A stretch of DNA of 64,000 nucleotides, taken from Epilithonimonas xixisoli. Lineage in GTDB: Bacteria; Bacteroidota; Bacteroidia; Flavobacteriales; Weeksellaceae. Position numbers and translations under genes: made by a program. The notes below the pieces were generated by a model. That model made no database searches. It was given only the letters and a program-made list of their open reading frames with translations, and was not told the DNA's origin. This document shows, piece after piece, positions 29,031 through 33,675 of this stretch (positions are counted from its first letter, which is position 1; each line of letters opens with the position of its first letter). Location of the stretch: assembly GCF_004365655.1 (NCBI RefSeq), contig NZ_SOEO01000003.1:372001-436000 (forward strand). Reading direction: 5' to 3'.

Positions 29031-29921
29031 TTATTTTAAGAACATTTTCGAAACCTTCTCCGCTTTTTTACTTTCGGAATAATCGTAGAAACCTTCACCA
29101 GATTTTACACCTTTTTTGCCTGCCATTACCATATTCACAAGAAGTGGATTGGGCGCATATTTCGGATTTTTGAAACCCTCGTACATTACATTTAGGATTG
29201 CTAAGCAAACATCAAGCCCGATGAAATCTGCCAATTGCAAAGGTCCCATCGGATGCGCCATTCCTAGTTTCATCACCGTATCGATTTCCTCAACACCAGC
29301 AACGCCGTTATAAAGTGTTTCAATCGCTTCATTGATCATCGGCATCAGGATTCTATTGGCTACAAATCCGGGATAATCGTTCACTTCGGTTGGAACTTTT
29401 CCTAATTTTTTGCTCAATTCAAAAATCTCGTCAAATGTTTCTTTCGAAGTCGAGTAGCCTTTGATGATTTCTACCAGTTTCATAATCGGAACCGGATTCA
29501 TAAAGTGCATTCCAATGACTTTCTCCGGACGTTTTGTTGCAGCAGCAATTTGCGTGATAGAAATGGATGAGGTATTGGTCGCAAGAATGCAATGGGCTGG
29601 CGAAAGTTCGTCCATCTGTCCAAAGATTCTTAGTTTCAAATCCAAATTTTCTGTCGCAGCTTCTACGATGAGGTCAGCTTTTGGCGCTGCATCTTTCAAA
29701 TCCGTAAATGTTGTAATGTTTCCAAGCGTGCTGGTTTTTTCTTCCTCCGTCAGATTTCCTTTGGCGATGATTCTGTCTAGATTGGTGGTGATGGTTTTGA
29801 TCGCTCTGTCCAGATTTTCCTGTTTCACATCCACCAAACTCACTTGGAATCCACTTTGGGCAAAAGTGTGGGCAATCCCATTTCCCATAGTTCCTGCGCC
29901 TATTACAACAATGTTTTTCAT
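29031..29921 (-). CDS. hbd: 3-hydroxybutyryl-CoA dehydrogenase
   Basis: 296 aa. NAD-binding GAGTMGNGIAHTFAQSG at residues 7-23, ATNTSSISI near 115, HFMNPVPIMKLVEI with the catalytic His (about 138), and the C-terminal domain beginning DYPGFVANRILMPMINEA. Oxidises 3-hydroxybutyryl-CoA (or other 3-hydroxyacyl-CoAs) with NAD(P) in short-chain fatty acid metabolism; the length excludes the multifunctional FadB type. Confidence 0.95.
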   Translation of the reverse strand: MKNIVVIGAGTMGNGIAHTFAQSGFQVSLVDVKQENLDRAIKTITTNLDRIIAKGNLTEEEKTSTLGNITTFTDLKDAAPKADLIVEAATENLDLKLRIFGQMDELSPAHCILATNTSSISITQIAAATKRPEKVIGMHFMNPVPIMKLVEIIKGYSTSKETFDEIFELSKKLGKVPTEVNDYPGFVANRILMPMINEAIETLYNGVAGVEEIDTVMKLGMAHPMGPLQLADFIGLDVCLAILNVMYEGFKNPKYAPNPLLVNMVMAGKKGVKSGEGFYDYSESKKAEKVSKMFLK

Positions 29922-30028: not shown

Positions 30029-31027
30029 TCACTCTTTCTCGAGATAATAAAGATACTCTGTCGTTTCCGAAGCTTTATGATTTCTGTTCTCTTCTTTGTC
30101 TGCCCGAAAACGTTGATACTCGGTTGTAAATATATCATATTTCCCGAATTTGGAAAGTATATCTCTAATTTCACTTTCAGGCATCAATCCCTCATTATTA
30201 TAACTTAGGAAAATATGCTGGAATTTCGCGTTTTTAATGAGCTCTTCAAAGCTTTTTGCAACTTCAACTTTGCTGCAATATTTTGATTTCTGATAATCTC
30301 GAAGTCCCGTTTTTCCTTTTGGAGAGAATTGGTCGTATTTTGCAATTGTATTTAGGAGATGATAATTAGCTCCGTATTGACGAGCGTTGTAAGGTGGATC
30401 GAGATACAGAATGTCTCCTTCGATTTTTTTGATTAATTCGTTCGCATCTTCATTATAAACCTCGTGTTTATTTTCCGTGATTTCAAAAAAAGAAGGAACG
30501 ATTTCTAATTTTTTCTGAGCCGATTTTTTGATTTGTTTGAGGAATGCGCCATAAACAGAGGCTGTATTCGCAACCTTATCCGCAGCTTCCAAAAGTGAAC
30601 AAAGCAGGAAATAGTATTGATCTTCATTGATTTTTTCAGACAATTTCCAATCTTCAATTTTCTGTCGAATGGCATCTATTTTATTTCCGTTTTCTTCCGA
30701 AAAATAAAGCCTTTCCGATTTCCCGTTTTCCGAATATTCTTCTGAAATAAAACCAGATTTTCCTTCTATCGAATTCAATTGATTAATGAAATCTTCAAAA
30801 TCGAAATTCTTATGATTTCCGATGTAATTTCGATTAAGAACATAACTGTAAAATTCAAAATCGTTGCTGATGACTTTCTTGGTTTCCGCTTTGAAATTTC
30901 GTCCGACAATTCCGGTTCCTGCGAAGAGATCGCAAAATGTTTTGCTGCTCAAGTCTTTACCAACAACTTGATAAACGCTTTGTTTGATGAAATCTGAAAG
31001 TTTGTTTTTGGAACCGATGTAATTCAT
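30029..31027 (-). CDS. D12-class adenine-N6 DNA methyltransferase
   Basis: 332 aa. SAM-binding motif I FAGTGIVG at residues 35-42 after an N-terminal NYIGSKNKL, and catalytic motif IV DPPYNARQYG at 210-219 define a Dam-like alpha-class m6A methyltransferase. The region between (about 85-190) is longer than in Dam and probably contains the target recognition domain. It starts 3 bp after the gene at 31031, which encodes a small protein with a nuclease-like motif, so a restriction-modification or defence pair is likely. The target sequence is unknown. Confidence 0.9.
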   Translation of the reverse strand: MNYIGSKNKLSDFIKQSVYQVVGKDLSSKTFCDLFAGTGIVGRNFKAETKKVISNDFEFYSYVLNRNYIGNHKNFDFEDFINQLNSIEGKSGFISEEYSENGKSERLYFSEENGNKIDAIRQKIEDWKLSEKINEDQYYFLLCSLLEAADKVANTASVYGAFLKQIKKSAQKKLEIVPSFFEITENKHEVYNEDANELIKKIEGDILYLDPPYNARQYGANYHLLNTIAKYDQFSPKGKTGLRDYQKSKYCSKVEVAKSFEELIKNAKFQHIFLSYNNEGLMPESEIRDILSKFGKYDIFTTEYQRFRADKEENRNHKASETTEYLYYLEKE

Positions 31028-31030
31028 GAA

Positions 31031-31645
31031 TTAAGCTTTGATCCAAATCAAATCTGAAAGGATCTCGTGAGATTCCAAATTTAAGGAAACTAAATTGGCT
31101 CTCGAAAAATTGCTGAGATATTCTGTGATTTTTTCTTTGATTAAAGAAAGTTCGGTCTTCAGTTTCCAATGTTCTCCATTTTTCGCATCATAAAAAATAA
31201 TGAACAACCGGTTCGCATGATGTTTTCTTCCTTGCTGACTTTGATTGTTGTAAAGCCATTCAATCAATTCTTTTTTGTGATCAACAGCATACTCAAAACT
31301 TTCCCCAAACTGTTTCGGGAAAATACTGCTTTTATGATCAAACGGAATTCCTGAAATATAAAAATCCACCGTCTTAGAAAACTGATTTTCTTCTTTGTTT
31401 ACCAAATGATTGGATGTAAAAATATATTCAACCGCTTTTGCAGACCAGAAATTCAGCCAACGATTGAAAGCATAATTTCTCAAACCTTCATCAAAATCTT
31501 TACATTGACTTTCCAAATCTTCAAAAACCTTAATCTGATAAATGAATTTCGTTTTAAAATCCCAATCATCAGACTGCTTTCTTCCCCAATTGTAAGGTAA
31601 GTTGATGCGTTTTTTGAGTTCGGATTCTAAGGATTGGAGAGTCAT
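31031..31645 (-). CDS. Candidate PD-(D/E)xK restriction endonuclease partner of the adenine methyltransferase
   Basis: 204 aa, no signal peptide, no family recognised with confidence. Residues 92-106 read TVDFYISGIPFDHKS: Asp94 followed nine residues later by Asp103-His-Lys105, which fits the D-x(n)-(D/E)xK core on a beta-hairpin. A helical N-terminal part contains RNYAFNRWLNFWSAKAVEYIF. It lies 3 bp upstream of the m6A methyltransferase gene, the arrangement of many type II systems. Nuclease activity is an inference from motif and context. Confidence 0.6.
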   Translation of the reverse strand: MTLQSLESELKKRINLPYNWGRKQSDDWDFKTKFIYQIKVFEDLESQCKDFDEGLRNYAFNRWLNFWSAKAVEYIFTSNHLVNKEENQFSKTVDFYISGIPFDHKSSIFPKQFGESFEYAVDHKKELIEWLYNNQSQQGRKHHANRLFIIFYDAKNGEHWKLKTELSLIKEKITEYLSNFSRANLVSLNLESHEILSDLIWIKA

Positions 31646-32076: not shown

Positions 32077-33042
32077 TTATTTCTGTATCAACCTTACAAT
32101 CTCCAAAGCAACCTTCAAAGCCTCCGTTCCATCTTCCAAAGAAACTTGAACAGGAACATCATATGTGATAGCATTGGCAAAACTTTCCAATTCATCAAGA
32201 ATAGCATTATTTGGTTGAATATTTGGATATTCAAAAAGAATTTGGTTTTTCTCACCTTCCGCATTTTCGATGATCATATCAAAGTCAGACGGATTTTCTG
32301 GTGCAGGTTTCATTCGGATAACTTCGGATTTTTTTTCTAAGAAGTCAACAGAAACATAAGCATCTTGCTGGAAAAATCTTGATTTTCTCATTGCTTTCAT
32401 CGATATTCTTGAAGTCGTCAAATTCGCGACACAACCATTTTCAAACTCGATTCTGGCGTTGCAAATGTCCGGCGTTTTGCTCACAACAGAAACACCACTC
32501 GCATGAATCAACTTCACTTTCGACTTTACCAAACTCAACAAAATATCCAAATCGTGAATCATCAAATCCAAAACTACAGAAACATCCGTTCCTCTAGGAT
32601 TGAATTCCGCCAATCTGTGAATCTCGATGAACATTGGATTTTTAATATAATCTTTCGCACCAATAAAAGCTGGATTGTATCTTTCCACGTGACCAACTTG
32701 CGCCTTTATTCCAAATTCGTTGCATTTTTGAAGAATTTCTTCCGCCTGTTCCAAAGTTTGCGTCACAGGTTTTTCAATGAAAAAATGAATGCCTTTTTCA
32801 ATCGCCTTTATGGCGTAATCGTAGTGATAAAGCGTTGGTGTCACAATATCCAACATTTCGATTTCGTTCAAAAGTTCCTCCAAACTTTCAAAATATTTAT
32901 AACCGAATTCCGCTTCCAGTTTTCGGCCGTTTTCTGCATCTTTGTCGTGGAAACCAACGAGTTCATATTTCTCAGATTGATTCAACAATCGCAAATGGAT
33001 TTTTCCCAAATGTCCCGCGCCCACAAGTCCGGCTTTTATCAT
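32077..33042 (-). CDS. Gfo/Idh/MocA family oxidoreductase
   Basis: 321 aa. N-terminal Rossmann fold AGLVGAGHLGKIHL (residues 4-17), the family EKPVT motif (IHFFIEKPVTQTLEQAEE, Lys near 95) and a C-terminal substrate domain with DLMIHDLDILLSL. Members reduce or oxidise sugars, inositols or biliverdin-like compounds with NAD(P). The substrate is not predictable; there is a second, divergent paralogue at 33727. Confidence 0.88.
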   Translation of the reverse strand: MIKAGLVGAGHLGKIHLRLLNQSEKYELVGFHDKDAENGRKLEAEFGYKYFESLEELLNEIEMLDIVTPTLYHYDYAIKAIEKGIHFFIEKPVTQTLEQAEEILQKCNEFGIKAQVGHVERYNPAFIGAKDYIKNPMFIEIHRLAEFNPRGTDVSVVLDLMIHDLDILLSLVKSKVKLIHASGVSVVSKTPDICNARIEFENGCVANLTTSRISMKAMRKSRFFQQDAYVSVDFLEKKSEVIRMKPAPENPSDFDMIIENAEGEKNQILFEYPNIQPNNAILDELESFANAITYDVPVQVSLEDGTEALKVALEIVRLIQK

Positions 33043-33145: not shown

Positions 33146-33451
33146 TTAAGTATAGTCAAAGTCTGTTTCATTTTCATCTCTTCTTGCATCCCAAATTGAT
33201 AAAATGATTAACTGCGTTTCAGTTACTTCATAGAAAATCAGGTAATTGTGAACAATGCTGATTCTGGTGTTTGCATCATTTGTTGTTCTTCCGATTTTTG
33301 GATGCTGAGATAGGAGATTGATAGCTTCGGTAACTAATATGCTGAGCTTTTTGCTATAAGTTTTGGATTTTGTTTTCTTTGTCCAATAAATTAGAATTTC
33401 TTTAAGTTCAAGTTTTGCAGAATTAATCCAGACTATTTTTCGTTTAGCCAT
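33146..33451 (-). CDS. RelE/ParE family toxin
   Basis: 101 aa. ParE/RelE-type fold pattern: WINSAKLELKEILIYWTKKTKS at the start, LLSQHPKIGR in the middle and YLIFYEVTETQLIILSIWDARRDE at the end. Family members cleave mRNA at the ribosome or poison gyrase; which one cannot be said. The gene overlaps the antitoxin gene by 19 bp and follows it, the normal order for translational coupling. Confidence 0.88.
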   Translation of the reverse strand: MAKRKIVWINSAKLELKEILIYWTKKTKSKTYSKKLSILVTEAINLLSQHPKIGRTTNDANTRISIVHNYLIFYEVTETQLIILSIWDARRDENETDFDYT

Positions 33452-33675
33452 TGCTCAATCTCTTTGTTTACCTCTTCATTGCTGGATATTTCTCCATTTG
33501 CATATTCTTTTCTCGCTTCTGCAATTCTGTTTTCTTGCTGCTTTGATAATACGAAAACATCTTCATCCAGTTCAAAATCCAACAGTTTTTTGATTTCTCG
33601 TATAACCCGAATTTCTTTCAATTCGGTTATTTTATTGATAACATCTAATTTTAATTGTAATTCGGCTGAACTCAT
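33433..33675 (-). CDS. Antitoxin of the RelE/ParE pair
   Basis: 80 aa, first gene of the pair. Mostly helical with an acidic and basic mix; the C-terminus (ENRIAEARKEYANGEISSNEEVNKEIEQWLNEK) is typical of a toxin-binding tail of small antitoxins in Bacteroidota (addiction-module component type). It likely binds its own promoter (TAAATTTG on the minus strand, 33693-33700). Confidence 0.82.
   Translation of the reverse strand: MSSAELQLKLDVINKITELKEIRVIREIKKLLDFELDEDVFVLSKQQENRIAEARKEYANGEISSNEEVNKEIEQWLNEK

Follow-up and report, generated by a model that had tools for sequence, protein, structure and literature searches.

Restriction at CATG is already represented by several enzymes. In the parts of the sources drawn on here, NlaIII and FatI are named as CATG enzymes, with FatI cutting before CATG (PMC6449724), and CviAII from Chlorella virus PBCV-1 (genes A251R/A252R) is given as another (PMC7248222). 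The hpyIM methyltransferase is described in the portion used as recognising CATG (PMC4450513), and iceA1, the neighbour of hpyIM, is referred to as NlaIII-like in another source (PMC13340068). Type IIP enzymes, as summarised in the relevant section of a review, read palindromes, are mostly homodimers or homotetramers, and almost always come with a separate methyltransferase of the same specificity (PMC4081073).

The window, meaning the whole stretch of 64,000 nucleotides of Epilithonimonas xixisoli DNA that was analysed, carries a pair of genes, R204 and M (Table 1), which we regard with good confidence as a two-gene type II (probably type IIP) restriction-modification system acting at CATG, with R204 as its PD-(D/E)xK nuclease.

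Table 1. Positions in the window of the two genes, their junction and their proposed functional motifs
Feature	Position	Strand	Basis
R204, 204-aa putative PD-(D/E)xK restriction endonuclease	31031..31645	-	ORF, alignment, model, dN/dS
E73 codon, near the end of long helix 53-77; proposed fourth active-site residue	31427..31429	-	invariant in 29/29 aligned sequences; helix in model
D94-x8-D103-H-K105, proposed metal-binding and catalytic motif	31331..31366	-	sequence, alignment
Gap between R204 stop and M start, 3 bp	31028..31030		sequence
M, 332-aa D12-class N6-adenine DNA methyltransferase, proposed C(m6A)TG specificity	30029..31027	-	Pfam PF02086, PADLOC PDLC03257
FAGTG, AdoMet-binding motif of M	30911..30925	-	sequence; F35, G37, T38 and G39 invariant in 9 aligned sequences
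DPPY, catalytic motif of M	30389..30400	-	sequence; invariant in 9 aligned sequences

A preliminary description of this DNA had reported a 204-aa gene placed 3 bp ahead of an intact m6A methyltransferase gene, and both ORFs are present as described, on the minus strand. Each begins with ATG, and the two genes likely form one operon with the nuclease gene first. M matches Pfam PF02086 (MethyltransfD12; 1e-57, 252 of 253 positions covered) as well as the PADLOC model MTase_II PDLC03257 (2.3e-137), and it is the sole D12 match in the host genome. The motifs claimed earlier were located at residues 35-42 (FAGTGIVG) and 210-219 (DPPYNARQYG). By sequence, M is an adenine methyltransferase of the D12 class, complete and with its catalytic motifs intact.

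R204 belongs to no family in the libraries searched. It had no match at E <= 1 in Pfam, PADLOC or NCBIfam, and the PDB yielded chance-like matches only (E >= 0.19). As a single sequence R204 gave one there, at E 0.22, which was dismissed as chance, and a PDB profile search with 29 R-family sequences returned two chance-like matches and nothing credible. One match in PHROGs, of unknown function and at E 0.075, was likewise dismissed as chance. None of the PADLOC nuclease models matched R204 (E <= 1) or six relatives from its family (E <= 0.01). The earlier wording, an unrecognised family outside the familiar ones, is therefore accurate for Pfam, PADLOC, NCBIfam and the PDB as searched.

The segment TVDFYISGIPFDHKS, on which the nuclease assignment had been based, is found in R204 as D94, eight residues, and then D103-H-K105. 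The pattern alone is weak evidence, as D-x8-[DE]-x-K arises in 730 of 5000 shuffles of R204. The alignment comprises 29 sequences, the others being 77% down to 24% identical to R204, and has just twelve invariant columns. E73, D94, D103 and K105 are among these, identical in 29/29 sequences and at PD-(D/E)xK positions, and the segment from D94 to K105 has a constant length throughout (29/29). Invariance of the four residues together with the fixed segment length makes the D-x8-DHK arrangement more than a chance reading. At the level of sequence, R204 carries a PD-(D/E)xK signature with an upstream acidic residue.

The core of the PD-(D/E)xK superfamily runs alpha-beta-beta-beta-alpha-beta. An AlphaFold model of R204, built on an 11-sequence alignment (mean pLDDT 91.1, pTM 0.87), has a helix at 53-77 with E73 near its end, a strand at 82-84, a hairpin at 95-97/100-108 on which D103 and K105 are located, helices at 117-122 and 124-134, and a strand at 146-152. 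The order of elements in this predicted structure fits the superfamily core. Foldseek against the PDB and a search of BFVD returned nothing at E <= 0.001. The best VIA match was a Cas4-family protein (Z 4.0, 4.7 A, 53 residues), which spans residues 21-73 of the model alone, a helical part. Matches to EcoO109I (Z 3.9, 5.4 A, 120 residues), Ecl18kI (Z 3.0) and AvaII (Z 3.0) were weak as well. Among the 50 VIA matches listed, all of them weak, we take 40 to be PD-(D/E)xK proteins, namely 24 influenza PA entries and 16 others that include EcoO109I, Ecl18kI, AvaII, Can2, Card1, McrC and CdiA toxins; the remaining 10 are other proteins. A fold family for R204 is not claimed from structure alone, Foldseek being empty and the VIA matches weak. 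The order of elements and the positions of E73, D94, D103 and K105 favour the nuclease fold suggested beforehand, and the structural matches, the best of which reached Z 4.0, do not decide it.

Both genes appear to be maintained. In ten genomes in or near the genus, the nuclease gene is full length (204 aa) in 10/10, with a median pairwise dN/dS of 0.113 (43 of 45 pairs used). For M the median in ten genomes is 0.089, and for the dehydrogenase gene next to the pair it is 0.039. The low dN/dS of R204 and M indicates that both genes have been kept functional, under purifying selection.

R204 and M are also closely linked across genomes. Across 395 sampled genomes of the order, full-length R204 was found in ten, from six genera, and M (E <= 1e-100) in the identical ten, with the two genes adjacent in every one of them. 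A plain draw would give identical sets of 10 out of 395 with a probability of 4e-20, a value that is an illustration only, because the genomes are related. G414 adds an R match of just 54 residues, a fragment interrupted by stops, and G571 holds a second M without a second R204. Homologues do stand beside methyltransferases, contrary to the refuting case named in the preliminary description: the neighbour is M in these 10/10 genomes, and relatives of R204 adjoin other methyltransferase classes.

In a search of 320 genomes of the family, R204 matches occurred in 15, comprising 13 of 23 genus members, G194 and, weakly, G124. Within the genus, M at >= 86% identity occurs in exactly these 13 and in none of the other ten. 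A 48% paralogue of M is present in G221 and G225, which lack the pair, and in G231 and G238, which have it. The distance between R204 and M is 3 to 132 bp in 12 of the 13. In G223 (L008/L126), a C5-like methyltransferase gene and a gene for a 466-aa MutH-domain nuclease lie between R204 and M (L008 6718-9388, L126 5468-8138; C5 class judged by eye), a putative restriction system enclosed by another one. In G194 the two genes are on different contigs, R204 amid purine genes and M among unrelated genes (nuclease, L033 7532-8149; methyltransferase, L058 1495-2493). M-like genes (E <= 1e-60) occur in 25/320 genomes: the 13 genus members with the pair, G221, G225, G194 and nine others that lack R204. 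These nine are G252, G308 and G309, with M at 72% identity, and six genomes of another genus, with M-like genes at 46-51%.

Within the genus, the pair is flanked by a 3-hydroxyacyl-CoA dehydrogenase gene (29031-29921 in the window) and an oxidoreductase gene (32077-33042); in G233 this was seen on the dehydrogenase side only, and in G230 the two sides are on two contigs. The same interval was inspected in 10 genomes without the pair. It is empty in three (G219, G227, G235), contains a lone 149- or 169-aa Vsr-like nuclease gene in five (G220, G221, G224, G225, G228) and another gene in G222 and G226. The G220 copy matches PADLOC Vsr at 1.6e-22, and the other four were judged by sequence; inspection by eye revealed no methyltransferase gene next to the Vsr-like gene. 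The dehydrogenase-oxidoreductase interval resembles a small hot spot of DNA-processing genes. By the oxidoreductase gene, at 33146-33675 on the minus strand, a ParE-type toxin gene (PF05016, 1.7e-08) has an 80-aa ORF upstream, and these are a probable toxin-antitoxin pair.

The target was proposed from annotation. One phage gene, at 50.6% identity to M, bears the annotation "ulcer associated adenine specific DNA methyltransferase", a label that we take to denote Helicobacter hpyIM, and the annotation of M's relatives led us to propose CATG ahead of any counting. A 400-kb sample of the host genome contains 89 CATG sites where a maximal-order Markov model predicts 976, an 11-fold depletion and the strongest among the 16 palindromic 4-mers. 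All ten NCATGN contexts are depleted there (O/E 0.03-0.13), which argues that the site is CATG itself and rejects longer sites. Among 5- and 6-mers testable by expected count, none fell below log2 -0.7 in the host genome (490 non-palindromic 5-mers, 16 N-centred palindromes, 29 palindromic and 1536 other 6-mers tested).

Other genomes with the pair gave 157 CATG seen per 1011 expected (G233), 285 per 1007 (G237) and 37 per 477 (G239, 200 kb). Those without it gave 588 per 1121 (G226, O/E 0.524), 237 per 1019 (G228) and 187 per 565 (G225, 200 kb, O/E 0.331). CATG ranks first in 4/4 samples with the pair and in 2/3 without, and G228, which lacks the pair, is lower (O/E 0.233) than G237, which has it (0.283). 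Small loci added seven more genomes with the pair (O/E 0-0.34) and four more without (0.18-0.63; L119 0.63, L120 0.55, L122 0.18, L123 0.25). L122 is from G221 and L123 from G222, both CATG-depleted though without the pair, as are G225 and G228. Depletion is stronger with the pair (one-sided Mann-Whitney p 0.0056, 11 vs 7 genus genomes), the 18 values coming from samples of 8 to 400 kb and from genomes that are related and not phylogenetically independent. This comparison left out G230 and G238 (with the pair), G219, G227 and G235 (without), L014 (O/E 0.15), the window itself (0.13, genome G000), L033 (0.27, from G194 of another genus) and the distant pairs L009-L013, whose flanks have weak CATG depletion (O/E 0.43-0.93). 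Since genomes that lack the pair are depleted too, mostly to a lesser degree, the association is not exclusive. Their depletion could stem from another CATG system, earlier or distinct, or from the locus having been gained and lost.

Two further palindromes, which follow CATG in depletion among the 4-mers of the host, were considered. GGCC (log2 -1.43 in the host) was rejected as target, its mean difference between samples with and without the pair being -0.30. GATC (log2 -1.13 in the host, difference -0.53), lower in 3/4 samples with the pair, is at best a weak second candidate. CATG is likely the target of the pair; the depletion points to one site without assigning it to R204 or to M. Searching the 23 genus genomes for ICEA gave no match, and none was obtained in control genomes either, so that this silence is no proof of absence.

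In the system as we envisage it, M would methylate CATG in host DNA at the adenine of each strand, and R204 would cut unmethylated CATG in incoming DNA, probably as a homodimer, the form that the quoted review section on type IIP enzymes leads us to expect. D94 and D103 would hold a divalent metal and K105 would activate water, with E73 assisting. We infer all of these elements, that is the cleavage, the dimer, the metal chemistry, a site shared by R204 and M, and the identity of that site as CATG.

Invariant residues, linkage and CATG depletion give computational support to the type II restriction-modification pair named in the preliminary description, and its alternative, another defence module, is not needed. 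That the pair is such a system with a target other than CATG, the depletion deriving from another CATG system, present or past, is improbable in our estimate. It would accommodate the depletion in several genus members lacking the pair, the mildly depleted surroundings of the distant pairs L009-L013 and GATC as a weak second candidate, and relatives of M at 30% identity annotated as FokI methylase illustrate that specificity can differ within this methyltransferase group. Against it, the CATG guess preceded the counting, which then placed CATG first of 16 palindromes, and the 11 vs 7 comparison (p 0.0056) favours genomes with the pair, with the reservation that these genomes are related and unequally sampled. 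The host genome moreover has one D12 match and no ICEA/NlaIII-type match, in a search that was silent in controls too.

Two other explanations concern R204 itself. The four invariant residues of R204 are those of a nuclease centre, its domain occurs with different methyltransferase classes and is fused to one, and the proposed target is depleted, which we would not expect methylation alone to bring about. All this makes it very unlikely that R204 is a non-nuclease with an accessory or regulatory role for a methyltransferase that acts alone, even though no solved nuclease strongly matches its structure, M is found without R204 in three genomes of the family, and 12 of 14 viral loci with an M relative gave no R-family match within 3 kb. 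Restriction genes often decay earlier than their methyltransferase, and R204 could in principle be a dead or decaying enzyme beside a still useful M; a Salegentibacter copy (L010) has a frameshift near its start, and the long form of the family in G905 is broken by an internal stop. With all ten R genes in and near the genus at 204 aa, their median dN/dS at 0.113 and the motif residues retained in 29/29 aligned sequences, we give this reading hardly any credence.

Relatives of R204 form a wider family with varied methyltransferase partners. A methyltransferase gene is fused, adjacent or within about 3 kb at 46 of 49 R-family places, including four (L079, L080, L081, L253) at which it was read from ORFs by eye. 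None was seen nearby at the other three: L029 (G194), L092 (a Priestia plasmid) and L254 (viral). The 49 places omit duplicates (L015/L031, the second half of G230; L251, L252, L255, L258), the G414 54-residue fragment and more distant viral proteins in L261, L263 and L265. In a sample of the phylum, an R-family match was found in 19 of 395 genomes, four of them with a D12-kind pair (G000, G239, G523 and G942, the last being L066). Seven loci (L067-L073) combine a short R204-like gene with an N6_N4-type methyltransferase instead, the neighbour being backed by Pfam in 6/7; in L072, the end of the N6_N4-type gene is set apart by a transposase-like ORF. A 277-aa form in G932 (L074) also adjoins an N6_N4-type gene.

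A longer form of about 365 aa occurs in 8 of the 19 phylum genomes, counting G897, which has both forms. For a model of a 367-aa relative (pLDDT 89.0), Foldseek against the PDB returned nothing at E <= 0.001 and the VIA matches were weak. The neighbour is a D12 methyltransferase in L075 and of the PADLOC PDLC03319 type in L076, L078 and L082; the family search added G124, whose long form likewise adjoins a PDLC03319 methyltransferase. Since genes of the PDLC03319 type also match Pfam N6_N4 in part, they perhaps represent no independent class. L077 (G888) encodes a 728-aa fusion, with a D12 methyltransferase as the N-terminal half and the nuclease domain as the C-terminal half.

The family extends to mobile and viral DNA. 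The short form is present on viral contigs with a D12 (L091) or an N6_N4 (L090) methyltransferase, and the long form on viral contig L250 with a PDLC03319-type methyltransferase. The plasmid and phage collections yielded one R204 relative only (31% identity), on the Priestia megaterium plasmid pFDU301A, and the long form was absent from the plasmid and phage collections searched. The plasmid gene (L092 4893-5615, outside Bacteroidota) is near deaminase- and kinase-like genes, with no methyltransferase found by eye within 5 kb. Fourteen viral loci (L257-L270) have M-like genes, and in 12 of these an R-family match within 3 kb is absent; the exceptions are L258, which shares its contig with L091 and has a match to R204, and L263, where the match is distant. 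Neighbouring ORFs of 283 aa in L265 and 312 aa in L261 look similar by eye and may be additional branches of the nuclease family. Among the neighbours of seven related methyltransferases from plasmids or phages there is no clear CATG partner, and one is annotated as FokI-like.

We tentatively raise the possibility, which we hold to be less probable than not at present, of an undescribed PD-(D/E)xK restriction family whose nuclease module is combined with D12, N6_N4 and a third (PDLC03319) type of methyltransferase, as separate or fused proteins, in more than one phylum (by record titles) and in viruses. Across its members the target (CATG for the short form) may stay constant as one methyltransferase replaces another. 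If this is true, independent convergence of nuclease and methyltransferase specificity could be seen, and one nuclease module with different methyltransferase classes would amount to a natural experiment on how specificities are matched.

A probable restriction enzyme family is absent from the copies of Pfam, NCBIfam, PADLOC and the PDB searched here, so that tools built on these libraries would see the methyltransferase alone. The pair would help to account for the strong CATG depletion in the genus, and, if our reading is right, DNA for these strains should be CATG-methylated or CATG-free.

The closest described systems are M.HpyI (hpyIM)/IceA1 and NlaIII, CATG type II systems that likewise consist of two genes with an adenine methyltransferase, and to which M is linked via the annotation of its relatives. 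R204 differs from the ICEA/NlaIII family (PF05315): an identity as NlaIII/IceA was rejected by sequence, as R204 has no ICEA match in Pfam at E <= 1. FatI comes from Flavobacterium aquatile, of the same order as the host, which makes it a strong candidate relative. R204 may be related to FatI, the two being likened by target and host order and not by protein sequence; among the open-licence papers listed on FatI, CviAII, CATG systems and Chryseobacterium methylomes, none settles this kinship. As to catalogued models, M belongs to PDLC03257 MTase_II and PF02086, and R204 is without a PADLOC nuclease model. The putative type II system that shares its chromosomal site in L008/L126, a MutH/Sau3AI-type nuclease with a C5 methyltransferase, differs in that its nuclease is recognised by Pfam (MutH, 4.3e-38) and its methyltransferase is, by eye, of the C5 class. 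CATG restriction itself is already known from the enzymes above, and the interest of this locus is mostly in a nuclease family missing from the libraries searched and in the variety of its methyltransferase partners.
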